Origin: a virus
Strand: one strand, 5' to 3'
Length of the DNA: 32,382 nt
IMG/VR virus record: IMGVR_UViG_3300018424_000109
Span: 1-32,382 of that record
The position numbers and the translations under genes are program-made. Under the pieces are notes generated by a model that saw nothing but the letters and a program-made list of their open reading frames with translations, had not been told where the DNA came from and did no database searches. Below, in pieces: positions 15,339 through 22,401 of this stretch. How positions within the stretch are numbered: position 1 is the stretch's first letter; every line of letters begins with the position of its first letter.

Positions 15339-15605
15339 ATGTTTGTTCTAACTCTAAATGGCAATGGTGATGGTGCTTATGCTGCTACTAATTTAGATGG
15401 CAGTAAAGCATTGCAACTCTTTGTTGACAAAGATGACGCTATACGGTATGCTGGTCTACTGGAGGCAGATGACCATCCAGAGTTGATTGTAAAGGAGATT
15501 GATGATGATCTTGTGATCAAAACTTGTGAAAGTTTGGGGCACAAGTATTGTATTGTTACTCCAGATGAATTTGTAGTTCCCCCATTTGACAATGATTCTT
15601 TTTAA
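15339..15605 (+). CDS. DUF3110-like small protein between gp47 and gp46
   Basis: The 88-residue protein begins 1 nt after the gp47 stop and overlaps gp46 by 14 nt. It opens with a strand MFVLTLNGNG, has DGAYAAT, then FVDKDDAIRYAGLLEADDHP, VKEID and CESLGHKYCIVTPDEFVVPP near the end. This order matches what I recall of DUF3110, a family of small proteins common in cyanobacteria and plants with no known function. Such an origin would suggest acquisition from a cyanobacterial host, but this comes from memory of the family pattern. There is no link to nuclease activity apart from its conserved-looking place inside the gp47-gp46 operon. Confidence 0.65.
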   Translation: MFVLTLNGNGDGAYAATNLDGSKALQLFVDKDDAIRYAGLLEADDHPELIVKEIDDDLVIKTCESLGHKYCIVTPDEFVVPPFDNDSF

Positions 15606-17313
15606 GACAATTAGATGGAAGAATTTTCTATCTACTGGTAATACTTTTACCGAAGTATCTTTGAATAGTTCTCCTTCCACATTGATTGTCGGATCAAATG
15701 GTGCAGGTAAATCTACAATCTTAGATGCACTTACGTTTGGTTTATTCAATAAACCTTTTCGCAAAATTAATAAACCACAACTAGTCAATTCATCTAACGA
15801 TAAAGAATGTTTAGTTGAAATTGAATTTAGTATTGGTAAGAAAGAATACTTGATTCGTAGGGGGATCAAACCAACCGTATTTGAGATCCATGTCAATGGC
15901 AATATGCTGGATCAAAATGCATCTGCTGCAGATCAACAAAAGCATCTTGAACAGAATATTCTCAAACTTAACTTCAAGTCTTTTACTCAGATTGTAATTC
16001 TGGGTAGCAGTACTTTCGTTCCTTTCATGCAATTGCCTGCTGCAGGGCGTAGAGAAGTTATTGAGGACATCTTGGATATCAAGATTTTCTCTACGATGAA
16101 TCTTCTGGTCAAAGAGAAGATCAAAATCTTTTCTGACGAAATCAAAGATCTAAAAAATAACGCAGAGTTAGTACAAGAGAAGATTGATATTCAGGATAGA
16201 TTTGTTACTGATCTTCAGGAACAATCCCAGTCTAGGGTAACTCAAAAGAAATCTGAGATCGATAACCTTCTGACAAAGATTGTTTCTATTGATAATCAAG
16301 TCGAAGCGTGTATGTCATTTATCACTGGTCTAAAGGATACCAGTGAAGATCCAGCAAAGTTTGAAACTAAACAAACTAAACTGCATAAGCTCCATCACAA
16401 GATGGATGCAAAGCAGAAGACTCTTTCTAAAGAAATAGAGTTTTATGACAAGCATGATGATTGTCCTACTTGCAGTCAACCGATTGGTGAAGATCTGAAA
16501 AAGAGTAAGATCAAAGATAATCTAAAATTGCTTGACGAAATTGATCTTGCTATGTCAACCATGGAGAATGAGATCGATAGTTTGTCCACCAAACTGAATG
16601 ACATCAAAGAAGTTCAGAATAAAATCTATGAGTCAACCTTTGAACTCAAGCGTCTGAACAACTCCAAAGAAAATGTTCAGGAACAGATTGATTATATCAA
16701 TAACGAAATCAATCGTATTCAGAACAATAATAATAATATCGAGAGAGAGAAAGAGAAGAAGCAAGAGTTCGTCGGTCAGAAAAAATTCATCGACAAGATG
16801 ATTGCCGAGATGAAGATGAAAAAGGATGAGCATGATGTTGTTCATTTTCTCCTCAAGGACAGTGGAGTCAAGACCAGAATCATCAAAAAGTATCTTCCCC
16901 TGATGAACAAGTTGATTCGTCAGTACCTTCAAGAACTTGATTTTGGTATTAATTTTTCTCTTGATGAAGAGTTCAATGAGACAATCAAGTCTCCTATTCA
17001 CGATCAGTTCTCATATGCATCCTTCTCTGAAGGAGAAAAAATGAGAATTGATCTAGCACTACTATTCACTTGGAGAGAAGTTGCTAGAGTCAAGAACTCT
17101 GTCAATACTAATCTTTTGATTCTCGATGAAATTTTTGATAGTTCTCTAGATGTTTCTGGTACAGATGACTTCCTAAAAATTATTAGGTTTGCTGTTCATG
17201 ATGCAAACATCTTTGTCATCTCACATAAAGGAGATATCTTACAAGATAAGTTTGCAGATACCATTCAGTTTGAGAAAGTCAAAAACTTTAGCAAGAAGTG
17301 CCAGTTGAACTAG
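15592..17313 (+). CDS. gp46: Recombination nuclease subunit gp46 (Rad50/SbcC-like ATPase)
   Basis: This 573-residue SMC-family ATPase holds DNA ends for gp47. Walker A is GSNGAGKST (34-42). Two long coiled-coil arms (about 170-450) flank a zinc hook, C291-P-T-C294. The ABC signature is SFSEGEKMRID, and Walker B is LLILDEIFDSSLD, near the C-terminus. T4 gp46 has 560 residues. I chose the ATG at 15592 (MILFKTIRWKNF), which matches the usual family start. A TTG lies two codons upstream in frame. A strong terminator follows 9 nt after the stop, ending the operon that starts at gp55. Confidence 0.95.
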   Translation: MILFKTIRWKNFLSTGNTFTEVSLNSSPSTLIVGSNGAGKSTILDALTFGLFNKPFRKINKPQLVNSSNDKECLVEIEFSIGKKEYLIRRGIKPTVFEIHVNGNMLDQNASAADQQKHLEQNILKLNFKSFTQIVILGSSTFVPFMQLPAAGRREVIEDILDIKIFSTMNLLVKEKIKIFSDEIKDLKNNAELVQEKIDIQDRFVTDLQEQSQSRVTQKKSEIDNLLTKIVSIDNQVEACMSFITGLKDTSEDPAKFETKQTKLHKLHHKMDAKQKTLSKEIEFYDKHDDCPTCSQPIGEDLKKSKIKDNLKLLDEIDLAMSTMENEIDSLSTKLNDIKEVQNKIYESTFELKRLNNSKENVQEQIDYINNEINRIQNNNNNIEREKEKKQEFVGQKKFIDKMIAEMKMKKDEHDVVHFLLKDSGVKTRIIKKYLPLMNKLIRQYLQELDFGINFSLDEEFNETIKSPIHDQFSYASFSEGEKMRIDLALLFTWREVARVKNSVNTNLLILDEIFDSSLDVSGTDDFLKIIRFAVHDANIFVISHKGDILQDKFADTIQFEKVKNFSKKCQLN

Positions 17314-17378: not shown

Positions 17379-19436
17379 ATGCCAGTCAACTATGAAATCA
17401 AAGGAACTGTTGCCCGCCTGCTTGCTACGGAAAACCTGATCGTTGAGAACCGTCGTGTCGGAACAGCATCATTCAATGTCCACACCCGTGTCCTGACACT
17501 GCCAATGTGGGAACGCGCTAATAATAATGTTTATGATCTGCTTGTTGCTCATGAAGTGGGTCACGCTCTCTTCACCCCAGATAAAGAATGGAATCTTCAG
17601 ATTCCCAAAGATTATCTAAACATCACAGAGGACGCTCGAATTGAGAAACTGATGAAGCGCCGTTTCAATGGGCTTTATAAAACTTTCGTGCATGGGTATG
17701 AGTATCTTGCTGAGACTGACTTCTTTGAATTGGATGGAACTGATGTTAATAAAATGTCCTTCGCTGATCGTGTGAATCTACATTTCAAGATTGGTAAATT
17801 TATTGATATTGAGTTTACTGATCATGAGAAAGAAGTCGTTGATATGGTAGAAGCATCTGAGACTTTTGATGATGCTATCGCTGCAGCAGTGGCAATGTAT
17901 GAACTTGCTAAGCAAAAAGTAGAGCAGCAACAAAAACTTGAAGAAGACTTGGATGCACCTCAATCCCCTGGTTCTGCTAGCGGTGAAGGTTCACAACAGG
18001 GACAATCTGAAGAACAAGGTGAGGGTGAAAGTGAAGAATCTAGTGGCGAACAATCTGTGCAACAATCAGGTGGTTCTGGTGGTGGAGAGGAAAGTGTCGT
18101 TACTGATGAATTGTTTTCTGAAAAGGTTGAAGAACTGAATCGTGAAGACAATATGCATTTTGGTGAGAACCAGTATGTTGATTATCCCAACATGAAAGAA
18201 AGTGAACTTGTTGTTTCTAATGAGTATCTTCGCAATACAATGAACGATTTCTGGTCAGTGTTCCAGGGAGATGAGTTTACCCATGTTGATTCTTCTCTGA
18301 AGATGTTCATGAAAAATTCTGCTAAAGAAGTCAACTATCTGGTCAAAGAGTTTGAATGCCGTAAGGCAGCAGACGCATACTCTCGCTCTACAGTTTCTCG
18401 TACAGGTGTTCTTGATACTGGTAAACTTCATACGTACAAATATAATGATGATGTATTCAAAAAACTGAATATCATCCCTGAGGGTAAGAATCATGGTCTT
18501 GTATTTGTGCTGGACTGGTCTGGATCTATGTCTAATGTAATCGAAGATACTGTCAAGCAACTTATTAATCTCATTGTTTTCTGTCGTAAAGTTAGTATCC
18601 CTTTTGAGGTTTATGCATTTACTAACAACTGGTTAGATACTAATGATTGTAATGATCTTGATCTCTATGTACAGCACTTGAAAAAATTCAAGTCTAATCA
18701 GTTGTTCCTTGATCCCCGATTCCGTATGCTCAACTTTGTGAGCAGCAAATCAAAGAACAGGGAAATTGATGAGAGTATTCGTAATCTGTTTCGTCTTGCT
18801 CACAGTTTCCGTAATTATGTTCAGTATACTTGTCCCCCAAATCTGGGTCTCAGTGGTACTCCTCTGTGCGATGCTGTAGTTGCTCTGAATACTATTGTTC
18901 CTAACTTTCAAAAACGTAACGCTATCCAGAAAACTAATGTGATTATTCTTACCGATGGTGATACTGCACCTATTCGAACCACAGTTGAGTCTGAAAGGTT
19001 TGGTATTGGTACAGCACACGTTGGATACAATACTTATCTTCGGTGCCGTAAGACTGGAGAAACCAAGCAGATGGGACATTGGTTCAAGCAGTTGACCATC
19101 TTGCTTGACAACTTCAAAAAGTCTCATCCCAATATTAATTTGATTGGTATTCGTCTGGTTGATCGTGGTGAGTGGCAACGGTTCTCTAACATCTGGATTA
19201 CACAGGATGAAGAAAAGATTCGAGCACAGTGGAAGAAAGATCGAACCGCTACAATCAGGGGAACTTCTTTTGATGCTTTCTTTGCTATGGCTTGTCAAAC
19301 TCTCAATAATGATGTAGAATTTGAGGTGGAGGAAGATGCTACGAAAGCACAGATTCGTAAAGCATTCAAGAAATCTCTGCAAAGTAAAGCACTCAACAAA
19401 AAAATTCTTTCTGACTTTATAGATCTGGTTGCATGA
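17379..19436 (+). CDS. HExxH metallopeptidase-like / VWA-domain protein (CobT/NorD-like)
   Basis: The 685-residue protein has three parts. Residues 1-150 contain a gluzincin-like site, H58-E-V-G-H62, followed by NITEDARIE (81-89), whose Glu could be the third zinc ligand. Residues 190-240 are a Gly/Ser/Gln/Glu low-complexity linker. The C-terminal half is a von Willebrand A domain with a full MIDAS: D379-x-S381-G-S383, T494 in LSGTPL, and D526 in LTDGD. MIDAS-VWA proteins such as CobT and NorD work with MoxR-type AAA+ ATPases such as CobS and NorQ. A CobS-like ATPase lies two genes downstream. Cyanophage homologs are usually called peptidase or hypothetical. Substrate and true proteolytic activity are unknown. 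AGAGAGA precedes the ATG. Confidence 0.85.
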   Translation: MPVNYEIKGTVARLLATENLIVENRRVGTASFNVHTRVLTLPMWERANNNVYDLLVAHEVGHALFTPDKEWNLQIPKDYLNITEDARIEKLMKRRFNGLYKTFVHGYEYLAETDFFELDGTDVNKMSFADRVNLHFKIGKFIDIEFTDHEKEVVDMVEASETFDDAIAAAVAMYELAKQKVEQQQKLEEDLDAPQSPGSASGEGSQQGQSEEQGEGESEESSGEQSVQQSGGSGGGEESVVTDELFSEKVEELNREDNMHFGENQYVDYPNMKESELVVSNEYLRNTMNDFWSVFQGDEFTHVDSSLKMFMKNSAKEVNYLVKEFECRKAADAYSRSTVSRTGVLDTGKLHTYKYNDDVFKKLNIIPEGKNHGLVFVLDWSGSMSNVIEDTVKQLINLIVFCRKVSIPFEVYAFTNNWLDTNDCNDLDLYVQHLKKFKSNQLFLDPRFRMLNFVSSKSKNREIDESIRNLFRLAHSFRNYVQYTCPPNLGLSGTPLCDAVVALNTIVPNFQKRNAIQKTNVIILTDGDTAPIRTTVESERFGIGTAHVGYNTYLRCRKTGETKQMGHWFKQLTILLDNFKKSHPNINLIGIRLVDRGEWQRFSNIWITQDEEKIRAQWKKDRTATIRGTSFDAFFAMACQTLNNDVEFEVEEDATKAQIRKAFKKSLQSKALNKKILSDFIDLVA

Positions 19437-20203
19437 ATAAAAATACTATTGATACTATTGACTGTATTGAGTTTCTAAAGACACTTCCAGATGAGTCGGT
19501 GGATCTTGTACTCACAGATCCACCATATTTTATTGGATTTGATGGTGGTAAAGGGTGGGACTCTCAGTGGGATAGTGAACTTGAATATCTTCATTGGTGT
19601 GAAGATTGGACCAAAGAATGTGTTCGTGTTCTCAAACCAAACAGAATGTTAATTGTTTGGGGAACTTTGAAGACAGAAACATTCTTACGATATAAGTTGG
19701 AAACAACTAGTACACATTACAAAACACTTGCCCCACAGAATGAGATCATTTGGTCTTATAACTGGGGTGGACGTTCTAAAAAAAACTTTGCAAGAAAACA
19801 TGAGTATGCATGGTGCTGGTCCAAAGGTCAAGATTTCCTATTCAACGATAAGGATATACGGATCGAACGCAAGGTTAAGAAGAACCTACGCACTGGAAAG
19901 GAACATACGGAAGGCACTATCCCCACTTGCATTTGGGAAAAGAACAATCACACAACTTCTAAAGACTTTGTGGGTTGGCATCCAACTACCAAGAACTTGG
20001 ACATCCTTGAGCGTATCATTAGGGCGTACACTAATCCTGATGATCTGGTGCTGGATTGTTTTATGGGCAGCGCAAGTACAGCAGTTGCTTCCGTGAATTG
20101 TGGTCGATCTTATATTGGTACTGAGATTGATTCTGAGTATCATGAAAAGGCATTGGAAAGAATCTCTCAAGCAAATCCCCTTAGTGCCCTATATACTGTG
20201 TAG
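19433..20203 (+). CDS. Beta-class DNA methyltransferase (N6-adenine or N4-cytosine)
   Basis: The 256-residue enzyme has catalytic motif IV DPPY near the N-terminus (29-32) and the AdoMet-binding motif I-like DCFMGSAST near the C-terminus (from D208). The order IV, target recognition region, I defines the beta class of amino-methyltransferases. It would methylate phage DNA, probably to resist host restriction or to mark it. The recognition sequence cannot be read from the protein. Its ATG overlaps the stop of the VWA gene by 4 nt, so it is translationally coupled to it. No restriction enzyme is nearby, so it is probably an orphan methylase. Confidence 0.93.
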   Translation: MNKNTIDTIDCIEFLKTLPDESVDLVLTDPPYFIGFDGGKGWDSQWDSELEYLHWCEDWTKECVRVLKPNRMLIVWGTLKTETFLRYKLETTSTHYKTLAPQNEIIWSYNWGGRSKKNFARKHEYAWCWSKGQDFLFNDKDIRIERKVKKNLRTGKEHTEGTIPTCIWEKNNHTTSKDFVGWHPTTKNLDILERIIRAYTNPDDLVLDCFMGSASTAVASVNCGRSYIGTEIDSEYHEKALERISQANPLSALYTV

Positions 20204-20255
20204 TGTGCCAGTTCTGTAACTGTCCATAATCTGTTTCTTGGGTGCTGGTTCCGTG

Positions 20256-20261
20256 TATAAT
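20256..20261 (+). promoter_or_regulatory. Probable -10 element upstream of the cobS-like gene
   Basis: TATAAT lies in the 81-nt gap after the methylase gene. A possible -35, TTTCTT (20234-20239), is 16 bp upstream and is weak. Transcription would start near 20268. This excludes the in-frame ATG at 20264 as a start on this transcript and favours the ATG at 20285. Confidence 0.5.
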
Positions 20262-20284
20262 ATATGCATACAACACAAGGGACC

Positions 20285-21349
20285 ATGCCTCGCCAGTCTA
20301 ACGAACAACTGATCAGCACCATCCGTGACCTTTATGGCACCAGCGTTTCTACTGGTGACATCAAAGGTTATTGTGCTATGAATAATGTTTCTTATCCTAC
20401 TGTTACTCGTCACCTTGAGCAGTTCAAGGTTGGTCGTGGCAAGTGGGATCTGACTATTCAGGAACTGGAACAAAGTATTTCTACAACTCCTGCACTTTCT
20501 GAGAAGCAAAGTTTGATCCCTGTCAAAGATGATACCTTTGTACAGTTCGGTAACTTCAAAGATGTGAAGAAGATCATTCAGTCTCGCATCTTTTATCCGA
20601 CTTTTATCACTGGTCTCTCTGGTAACGGTAAGACCTTTGGTATCGAACAGGCATGTGCTCAACTAAATAGGGAGTTGATTCGCGTAAACATTACAATTGA
20701 AACCGACGAGGATGATCTTATTGGTGGGTTCCGTTTGGTTGACGGCAACACTGTTTGGCATAATGGTCCAGTCATCGAAGCTCTGGAACGTGGAGCTGTA
20801 CTTCTTCTAGATGAGGTTGATCTTGCCTCTAACAAGATCCTGTGTCTCCAATCTATTCTTGAGGGTAAGGGTGTATTCCTAAAGAAGATTGGTAGGTACG
20901 TACAACCTGCTGCTGGTTTCAACGTCATCGCTACTGCCAACACCAAGGGCAAGGGTAGCGATGATGGTCGCTTCATCGGCACCAACGTTCTTAATGAAGC
21001 ATTCCTTGAGCGTTTCTGTGTCACTTTTGAGCAGGAGTATCCTACTGCCACTATCGAATCTAAGATTCTTATGAAGGTTGCTGAGACTCTTGGCGTCTCT
21101 GATGACAAGTTCATGCTGCACCTTTGTGACTGGGCAGACATCATTCGCAAGACTTTCTATGATGGTGGTGTTGATGAGGTTATCTCCACTCGTCGCCTGG
21201 TCCACATTATCCGTGCCTACAGCATTTTCGGTGACAAGGTGAAGGCAATTCAAATCTGTCTCAATCGCTTTGATCTTGAAACTAAGCAATCTTTTATGGA
21301 ACTGTACGACAAGGTAGACGCTGACGTTGACATTCAGGAGCAAATCTGA
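20285..21349 (+). CDS. cobS: CobS/MoxR-type AAA+ ATPase
   Basis: The protein has 354 residues. An N-terminal about 55-residue segment (TGDIKGYCAMNNVSYPTVTRHL region) looks like a winged-helix or HTH domain. The AAA+ core has Walker A GLSGNGKT (110-117), Walker B LLLDEVD (173-179), sensor 1 ATANT (216-220) and an arginine finger region FLERF (240-244). This pattern fits CobS, NorQ and MoxR. Cyanomyophage homologs are annotated cobS after the cobaltochelatase subunit. Since no CobN is nearby and a VWA partner is, I regard a MoxR-VWA chaperone role as at least as likely as cobalamin synthesis. The start at 20285 was preferred to 20264 because a TATAAT element overlaps the latter. Confidence 0.9.
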   Translation: MPRQSNEQLISTIRDLYGTSVSTGDIKGYCAMNNVSYPTVTRHLEQFKVGRGKWDLTIQELEQSISTTPALSEKQSLIPVKDDTFVQFGNFKDVKKIIQSRIFYPTFITGLSGNGKTFGIEQACAQLNRELIRVNITIETDEDDLIGGFRLVDGNTVWHNGPVIEALERGAVLLLDEVDLASNKILCLQSILEGKGVFLKKIGRYVQPAAGFNVIATANTKGKGSDDGRFIGTNVLNEAFLERFCVTFEQEYPTATIESKILMKVAETLGVSDDKFMLHLCDWADIIRKTFYDGGVDEVISTRRLVHIIRAYSIFGDKVKAIQICLNRFDLETKQSFMELYDKVDADVDIQEQI

Positions 21350-21353
21350 TACT

Positions 21354-21743
21354 ATGACTAATGCTTGGGCACTCTTACACGATGAAATGAACATGGACGA
21401 AAACATCAACGAAATTGAACTTAATCTTGACCCACTTACAACTAATGGATTTTGGAAGTACCAAGAAGATTTGACTATGAAAGAGATCCGAGAGTATCTC
21501 TCGGGAACATATCGTCAACACTACACTTCTCCAGACTCTAAAACTCAGACGCTGGATTTGATTGAAAGTATTGGTGATGCAGAACCATTCTGCCGCTCTA
21601 ATGCAATCAAATACTTGTCTCGCTTCGGCAAGAAAGGAGGCAAGTCTAAGATGGATATCCTAAAGGCAATCCACTACTGCGTCCTCCTCTACCATTTTGC
21701 TGGTCTTCATAATGAAACTAAGGGAACCTATGAAACTTTCTGA
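21354..21743 (+). CDS. DUF3310-like protein (SaV-like)
   Basis: The 129-residue protein has a diagnostic C-terminal block, FCRSNAIKYLSRFGKKGGK, followed by MDILKAIHYCVLLY. This is the DUF3310 pattern of phage proteins sometimes annotated as nucleotide kinases; no ATP-binding motif is visible here, so I do not assert kinase activity. The N-terminal half (MTNAWALLHDEMNMDE) is specific to this lineage. The start at 21354 lies just after the cobS stop. An in-frame ATG at 21327, inside cobS, is less likely. It overlaps gp45 by 14 nt, placing it at the head of the clamp and clamp-loader genes. Confidence 0.75.
   Translation: MTNAWALLHDEMNMDENINEIELNLDPLTTNGFWKYQEDLTMKEIREYLSGTYRQHYTSPDSKTQTLDLIESIGDAEPFCRSNAIKYLSRFGKKGGKSKMDILKAIHYCVLLYHFAGLHNETKGTYETF
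21720..21725 (+). promoter_or_regulatory. Shine-Dalgarno sequence fixing the gp45 start
   Basis: AAGGGA lies 4 nt before the ATG at 21730, inside the DUF3310 gene. It supports the MKLSEKT start over the upstream in-frame ATG at 21697. Confidence 0.7.
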
Positions 21744-22401
21744 GAAAACACTTTCTGTCCTTAAAAACTTCTCGTCCATCAACCAGTCTATCTTTATCAA
21801 GAGTGGAGATAAACTGCGTACAATCAGTCTGATGAAGAACATCCTTGCTGAGGCAACTGTGCCCGAGGATTTTCCTAAAGACTTTGGTATTTACGATCTC
21901 AGTCAGTTCCTTGTTGGTCTGACTCTGCATGACAATCCTGTCCTTGATTTCACCAACGATTCTTTCGTTTATATTAAAGACGGTTCTTCTAGTCGCGTGA
22001 AGTACTTCTTCTCCGACCCTGCAGTTATTGTACAACCACCTGATCGAGCACTCAGTCTGCCTTCTACTGAGGTCTCATTCAAAGTTGATTCTTCTGAACT
22101 TTCCAAACTTCTGAAAGCATCTGCTGTATATCAACTTCCCGATTTGTCTGTCGTTGGTGAGTCTGATAAGATCTATCTGAAGGTACGTGATAAAAAGAAT
22201 GATACCTCCAATGAATATTCTATTCCTGTAGGTGACACTGAGAATGAGTTTACTTTCAACTTTAAGGTTGAGAACATCCGCATCATTCCTGGTACTTACA
22301 ATGTAGAAATTTCAAAGCAAGGTCTTTCTAAGTTTACTAATACTGAGCTTGATCTCAAGTATTATATTGCACTTGAACCTGATTCTGAATATCGTTCCTG
22401 A
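21730..22401 (+). CDS. gp45: Sliding clamp gp45 (processivity factor)
   Basis: The protein has 223 residues (T4 gp45 has 228). It is a trimeric DNA clamp that tethers gp43 polymerase and, in T4, activates gp55-dependent late transcription. The N-terminus MKLSEKTLSVLKNFSSIN and later GIYDLSQFL closely follow T4 gp45. The protein is beta-rich throughout. The start at 21730 matches the family start and has a Shine-Dalgarno sequence. Its stop overlaps the next gene by 1 nt (TGATG). Confidence 0.95.
   Translation: MKLSEKTLSVLKNFSSINQSIFIKSGDKLRTISLMKNILAEATVPEDFPKDFGIYDLSQFLVGLTLHDNPVLDFTNDSFVYIKDGSSSRVKYFFSDPAVIVQPPDRALSLPSTEVSFKVDSSELSKLLKASAVYQLPDLSVVGESDKIYLKVRDKKNDTSNEYSIPVGDTENEFTFNFKVENIRIIPGTYNVEISKQGLSKFTNTELDLKYYIALEPDSEYRS

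Follow-up and report, generated by a model that had tools for sequence, protein, structure and literature searches.

A CobST-type ATPase and VWA protein pair of T4-like cyanophages with a conserved metallopeptidase-type site that is absent from cellular CobT

Gene content of the locus

The virus record IMGVR_UViG_3300018424_000109 of IMG/VR is a fragment of a T4-like cyanophage and was analysed over its whole length of 32,382 bases (hereafter the window). It contains the genes of a CobT-like protein with a von Willebrand factor A (VWA) domain and of a CobS-like AAA+ ATPase, a pair that practically every T4-like marine cyanophage has and that is usually linked to cobalamin (vitamin B12 synthesis) through the name cobS, and we ask here what this pair could do in the viruses and plasmids that carry it. 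The closest database relatives of the window are T4-like cyanophages, of which S-BM3 carries the same methylase insert. The three open reading frames of the locus and the motifs quoted for them in a first-pass annotation were all recovered: H58, E59 and H62, NITEDARIE (81-89) and the metal ion-dependent adhesion site (MIDAS) residues D379, S381, S383, T494 and D526 in the VWA protein, and Walker A, Walker B and the conserved arginines in the ATPase, which also has LNEAFLERF at 243 and STRRL at 308. The features are as follows.

17379..19436, + strand: CobT-like protein, 685 amino acids, PHROG 459 ('peptidase', 9.5e-237), with a zincin-like domain, an acidic linker and a MIDAS/VWA domain
17379..17933, + strand: N-terminal zincin-type metallopeptidase-like domain, residues 1-185, predicted (AlphaFold2; Foldseek/VIA)
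17550..17564, + strand: HEVGH, residues 58-62, candidate zinc-binding/catalytic motif (sequence)
17619..17645, + strand: NITEDARIE, residues 81-89, with E84 as candidate third zinc ligand (sequence)
17952..18086, + strand: acidic, Q/S/G/E-rich, disordered linker, residues 192-236 (predicted local distance difference test, pLDDT, < 50)
18492..19298, + strand: VWA/MIDAS domain, about residues 372-640 (predicted fold, with NorD and midasin MIDAS; CobT profile)
18513..18527, + strand: MIDAS D379-x-S-x-S383, with T494 at 18858-18860 and D526 at 18954-18956
19433..20203, + strand: N6/N4 DNA methylase, 256 amino acids (PF01555, 5.7e-47)
20264..21349, + strand: CobS-like AAA+ ATPase, 361 amino acids, PHROG 249 ('cobS', 5.6e-136)
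20285..20443, + strand: helix-turn-helix (HTH)-like N-terminal region of the ATPase, weak (profile match of the homologue L094)
20612..20635, + strand: Walker A GLSGNGKT, ATPase residues 117-124 (sequence)
20801..20821, + strand: Walker B LLLDEVD, ATPase residues 180-186 (sequence)

Conservation of the gene pair

Viral contigs carrying the VWA gene (n=80) were collected with a scan pattern that did not include HExxH. The ATPase gene lies downstream of the VWA gene, in the same order and on the same strand, in all 76 contigs that extend past the latter, and the four without an ATPase stop at most 129 bases from the VWA gene. Of 50,697 phage records searched, 463 have the VWA protein and 504 the ATPase; the two counts are equal for phages of Synechococcus (365), 'Cyanophage' (61), Prochlorococcus (24) and Pelagibacter (3), and the surplus ATPase records come from phages of other hosts. 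Every one of these that was opened, from phages of Vibrio (ICP2 type), Pseudomonas, Stenotrophomonas, Escherichia coli, Salmonella, Klebsiella, Rhizobium and Roseobacter, has an adjoining VWA partner, with a divergence beyond the reach of the first VWA search. The expected co-occurrence is borne out, and no phage with a CobS homologue and without the VWA gene was met among the loci inspected, which left out the CobS-like ATPases reportedly present in Schitoviridae phages (PMC11705849). The two genes are one unit. A mobile version of it is found not only in phages, among them those of E. coli, Salmonella and Klebsiella, but also on about 1,000 plasmids, the majority from Klebsiella, Escherichia, Acinetobacter and Enterobacter.

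The spacing between the two genes is variable and reaches at least 400 bases in 9 of the 76 contigs, the gap being an insertion site for various genes. The first-pass annotation placed the methylase correctly and gave it a weight that it does not bear: apart from this window, a methylase separates the pair in only 2 of 81 other two-gene loci (L001 and L094), so that it was rejected as a component of the machine and is regarded as an incidental insert. In other cyanophages the same gap is apparently filled by other genes, such as those of a 2OG-Fe(II) oxygenase or a sulfotransferase.

On MOBH conjugative plasmids, three genes encoding an AAA ATPase, a DUF3150 protein and an HExxH-VWA protein stand beside exonuclease or toprim genes (L097:1157-6678, L098:398-5699, L099:694-5675 and L128:3376-7530). 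Their ATPase and HExxH-VWA protein are homologous to those of the window phage, which lacks the third gene, DUF3150; in Desulfovibrio-type loci an unassigned gene occupies the middle position. Single Nitratidesulfovibrio genomes hold several different HExxH-VWA copies (L143, L152, L165 and L167; L146 and L173). The VWA gene CYRAN_47 of an E. coli phage (OV696614.1; L087:3449-5557) is annotated as a dimethylbenzimidazole phosphoribosyltransferase, a confusion of two unrelated proteins that are both named CobT.

Relationship to CobS and CobT

The profile built on the ATPase has CobS as its best single-domain relative (PDB 9ujv, 1.1e-75), and that of the VWA family has one strong solved relative, the CobT chain 9uka_G (7e-58). 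The Pfam domains CobT_C and CobT are found in 11 and 9, respectively, of 14 family members. CobT was reached by the family profile alone: as a single sequence, the VWA protein has no match in the PDB and misses the Pfam VWA threshold (E 0.17), and its assignment as a VWA protein is based on the PHROG and CobT profiles and on the predicted fold. When the model of the VWA domain was searched with Foldseek, VWA domains were retrieved, with NorD ranked first and midasin among the matches. The proposal that the ATPase is closest to midasin was rejected, since the midasin score adds several AAA modules and CobS is best as a single domain.

Homologous does not mean equivalent here. The ATPase scores 76.8 bits (E 1.6e-21) against TIGR01650, the CobS equivalog, whose cut-off is 558.55 bits, and the window VWA protein has no match at E<=1 with TIGR01651, the CobT equivalog, whose cut-off is 759 bits; a phage relative (L090) reaches 85.7 bits. 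With the curated cut-offs missed this widely, the pair is not made of CobS and CobT equivalogs, whereas the ATPase family, the two-domain organization of the VWA partner and the adjacency of the genes are shared with cellular CobS/CobT (9ujv, 9uka). Walker A, Walker B and the conserved arginines in one protein and DxSxS...T...D in the other are the features of a MoxR/VWA system. Judged from these sequence features, the pair would be a CobST-type MoxR-VWA machine, and the earlier opposition between CobS/CobT and a MoxR-VWA machine does not hold in that form, as the profiles make both proteins CobS/CobT homologues.

The gene pair and its CobST kinship are already known. Liu et al. (2021, PMC8651126) named it cobST, described it as widespread in tailed viruses, took 'peptidase' for a mistaken label of cobT and proposed that host CobN is hijacked. 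We deal with the same gene pair; unlike that study, we find the peptidase-type site to be conserved and CobN to be missing from most carriers. The literature searched held no earlier report of an intact versus an erased zinc site or of a CobN test, and in the open-licence literature no prior report joins CobT and a metallopeptidase.

A conserved metallopeptidase-type site in the N-terminal domain

Since the Foldseek list of the full-length model was dominated by generic VWA domains, residues 1-185 were modelled alone with AlphaFold2 (mean pLDDT 87, predicted template modelling score 0.83). In this model, HExxH (58-62) lies within helix 49-65, and NITEDARIE with E84 within helix 77-95. The top Foldseek and VIA-align matches are nearly all HExxH metallopeptidases, and comprise minigluzincins (jannalysin, abylysin and selecase), ArdC, IrrE/PprI, Wss1, BlaR1 and M61 and M1 peptidases. 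No structural match being strong, we describe the domain as zincin-like by its predicted structure and claim no single zincin family. Minigluzincins/selecase, Wss1, IrrE/PprI and ArdC would share with it the predicted fold, a helical HExxH and a glutamate in the next helix; what sets the phage domain apart is the VWA/MIDAS domain at the other end of its tether and the AAA+ ATPase that accompanies it.

Of the 685 residues, 86 do not vary across 38 viral sequences of the cyanophage type, about 44% identical, and they include every one of the nine named sites, which exceeds chance (hypergeometric P 5e-9); H58, E59, H62, N81, E84, D85, R87, E89 and the MIDAS residues belong to this set. The pattern HExxH ... 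NxxEDxxIE also holds across distant phages and conjugative plasmids, exceptions aside, and the site is retained in most phages of Pelagibacter, Ochrobactrum, Vibrio, E. coli, Salmonella, Klebsiella, Rhizobium and Roseobacter. In phages of the ICP2 type HExxH is intact and the second motif is weaker; a one-residue insert turns the motif of one plasmid into HEAGGH. The all-lineage alignment was too divergent for a genome scan; the patterns used to scan bacterial genomes themselves contained the motif, and HExxH counts from these genomes were not used as evidence of conservation. The protease-type site first noticed in the window is a conserved feature of the family.

In five loci (XG4, L110, L111, L112 and L120), the zincin and VWA parts are encoded by separate reading frames, which indicates that they are separable domains. 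In Pseudoalteromonas phage XG4 (L082:2667-4924), the order of the two genes is swapped.

Probable loss of the site in cellular CobT

The N-terminal 250 residues of 30 cellular CobT proteins, taken from alphaproteobacterial genomes, contain HExxH in no case (0/30). The phage and CobT N-terminal domains, compared alone, are nevertheless related according to HHalign profile-profile comparison (probability 96.3%, E 1.5e-9, 115 columns), which aligns GFLDHEVAHILFTD...NALEDVFIERR over GFSDAYALRLAHHD...DAVEQARVEAIG. At the aligned columns of 13 CobTs, E84, R87, E89 and G98 are kept, whereas the column of H58 holds A, S or G, that of E59 a hydrophobic residue or Q, and that of H62 R, K or W (13/13). 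An HExxxH in one CobT (L185) is out of register and was dismissed as a chance match. CobT is a single, fully supported clade in an unrooted tree with some long branches, and every absence of the motif is explained by three losses. Loss, once in the case of CobT, is the simpler reading compared with gain, without being proven on such a tree. The picture best supported is one of a metallopeptidase-like domain that probably retains activity in most mobile versions and probably has none in CobT.

Most of the cellular CobTs inspected (L180-L209) have HHD or similar, often HHDxxxH, a few residues past the erased motif; this could be a site for another metal or for a substrate.

These data bear on the possibility that the pair is purely an ATP-driven remodelling chaperone, similar to NorQD, RavA-ViaA or midasin, in which the zincin-like domain, zinc-loaded or not, has a structural or target-binding and non-proteolytic role. 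The AAA+ ring plus MIDAS partner is common to NorQ-NorD, CbbQ-CbbO, RavA-ViaA and midasin, and NorD and midasin are among the closest solved VWA matches. Moreover, the domain is kept without HExxH in cellular CobT and in two phage lineages, which suggests a non-catalytic role too. An intact HExxH domain is not known from the partner proteins of these systems. A purely structural role accounts less well for the retention of E59 and of the two histidines in phages and plasmids that are only very distantly related, and we regard the chaperone explanation as possible, if rather unlikely.

Distribution of CobN among carriers

It has been proposed that phage CobST and host CobN form a mosaic cobaltochelatase, which would raise cobalamin output during infection (PMC8651126). 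This explanation is in print, it agrees with the clear CobS/CobT homology, and CobN/ChlH-family proteins exist in cyanobacterial hosts. The annotation had remarked that no CobN is seen in the window, which we confirm for what is only a 32-kb fragment; the neighbours of the pair include no cobalamin gene either. For a wider view, PF02514 (CobN/ChlH) was searched in 50 bacterial genomes carrying the mobile version, and no such protein was found in 35 of them, a few of these absences being possible assembly gaps. Carriers lacking CobN include isolates of Buttiauxella, Xenorhabdus, Morganella, Kluyvera, Photobacterium, Vibrio, Desulfovibrio and Geobacter. PF02514 is also absent from the genome of the E. 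coli control, although the pair is present in phages of this species and the ATPase is encoded by PhiR41_1, a phage of E. coli K-12; the many enterobacterial and Acinetobacter plasmids mentioned above weigh in the same direction. A chelatase that depends on CobN cannot work in most such hosts, because CobN/ChlH is absent from them. SAR11 phages carry the pair too, and SAR11 genomes, with the exception of HIMB59, are without known cobalt ion transporters (PMC4771312). Taken with the missed equivalog cut-offs, these results make a viral cobaltochelatase improbable, and the non-cobalamin function first put forward as a serious alternative is supported as the better reading, since many of the hosts in which the family occurs have no CobN.

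Association with replication and recombination genes

The window reads, in order, terminase, tail sheath, portal, scaffold, major head protein, helicase, gp47, gp46, the VWA gene, the methylase, the ATPase, gp45 and gp44; farther along are genes of the gp43, UvsX and gp41 types, namely DNA polymerase, UvsX-like recombinase and DnaB-like helicase. The pair is bracketed by the following two genes.

15586..17313, + strand: gp46, SbcC-like recombination nuclease subunit (PHROG 77)
21697..22401, + strand: gp45, sliding clamp (PHROG 223)

T4-like loci, including that of Ochrobactrum phage OC, have the pair beside gp46/47 and gp45/44. Elsewhere it adjoins DNA polymerase III and ligase (phage-plasmid type), a helicase and a DNA polymerase (ICP2 type), a lambda-type exonuclease and a toprim protein (plasmids), or a helicase, a primase and RecT (Desulfovibrio and Desulfuromonadales loci). 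The commonest named families among 100 flanking proteins, counted without a matched background, are ligase, integrase, polymerase, RecE, Erf, primase/helicase and replication proteins. The pair thus recurs beside DNA replication and recombination genes in unrelated mobile elements, and in this tie, as in the lack of CobN from most carriers, it differs from cellular CobS/CobT.

The N-terminus of the ATPase depends on the lineage. The HTH-like region described for the window ATPase is weakly supported, the best match being that of a homologue (L094) with DUF2089-HTH (E 0.0018), and this type is found in cyanophages. Many phage-plasmid ATPases (such as L104, L108, L116 and L126) have a conserved CxxC..H..H finger, similar to ROS/MUCR, in their first 30 residues. 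DNA-binding proteins typically have regions of either type, which is no more than suggestive.

The pair is common to phages and conjugative plasmids, both of which enter the cell as foreign DNA, and the top VIA structural match of the N-terminal domain is the antirestriction metalloprotease ArdC (Z 7.4). This would fit a host-takeover or counter-defence protease that unfolds and cuts a host protein hindering the incoming DNA; however, Z values below 8 are not specific, PADLOC has a match for neither protein, and we hold this explanation to be quite improbable. A chaperone of tail or head assembly, as proposed for an archaeal virus MoxR-VWA pair and listed as an archaeal phage-tail assembly system (PMC7159879), is very improbable for genes that sit in replication/recombination modules and also occur on non-viral conjugative plasmids, which build no virion.

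Proposed function

By analogy with CobS and NorQ, the ATPase subunits would form an AAA+ ring on which the VWA protein would dock, its MIDAS holding a target protein. ATP hydrolysis would pull on or remodel the held target, and the zincin-type domain, on its flexible acidic tether, would probably cut the remodelled target, or did so in an ancestor. The target would most likely be a phage or host protein of DNA replication or recombination, since modules for these processes house the pair in mobile elements of unrelated kinds. With a confidence slightly short of even, we tentatively prefer a remodelling machine of the CobST kind (AAA+ and MIDAS) that has a metallopeptidase tethered to it and whose target protein belongs to DNA metabolism; cobalt chelation would not be its primary role. 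From the first interpretation of the locus, the single unit, the conserved site and the non-cobalamin function are retained, whereas the contrast of CobS/CobT with MoxR-VWA and the relevance of the methylase are given up.

Several points weigh against this proposal. First, the structural matches of the N-terminal domain are weak (Z <=7.4, Foldseek E >=0.07), HExxH can be structural, and E84 is unproven as a zinc ligand, since it is also kept in CobT. Second, the histidines are lost in Pseudomonas phages of the phiK7B1/nickie type (L084) and in Stenotrophomonas phages (L089), and peptidase activity would be dispensable in these lineages. Third, the gene neighbourhood of T4-like phages may be inherited and not functional. 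Finally, the Synechococcus elongatus control has a PF02514 match, and for cyanophages themselves a cobalamin role may still hold.

In a 2010 comparison of 16 T4-like marine cyanophages, the gene named cobS was reported to belong to the core of all 16 (PMC3037559), and ocean surveys tally it as a vitamin B12 gene; according to a 2023 paper, whether cyanophage cobS acts in B12 synthesis is not known (PMC9983427). If the pair is a remodelling or proteolytic machine, the claim of an auxiliary metabolic gene falls for cyanophages, pelagiphages, phage-plasmids and haloviruses. A bolder and doubtful extension is that mobile elements carry a mechanical metalloprotease by which proteins on DNA undergoing replication or recombination are cleared or processed, CobT being its domesticated, catalytically dead descendant; cobaltochelatase would then have a testable history, in which CobT is a pseudo-peptidase. 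Relatives of the pair occur in a phage of E. coli K-12, which makes the question testable in a host without CobN, and the proposal offers a concrete, testable correction to the common cobS annotation.

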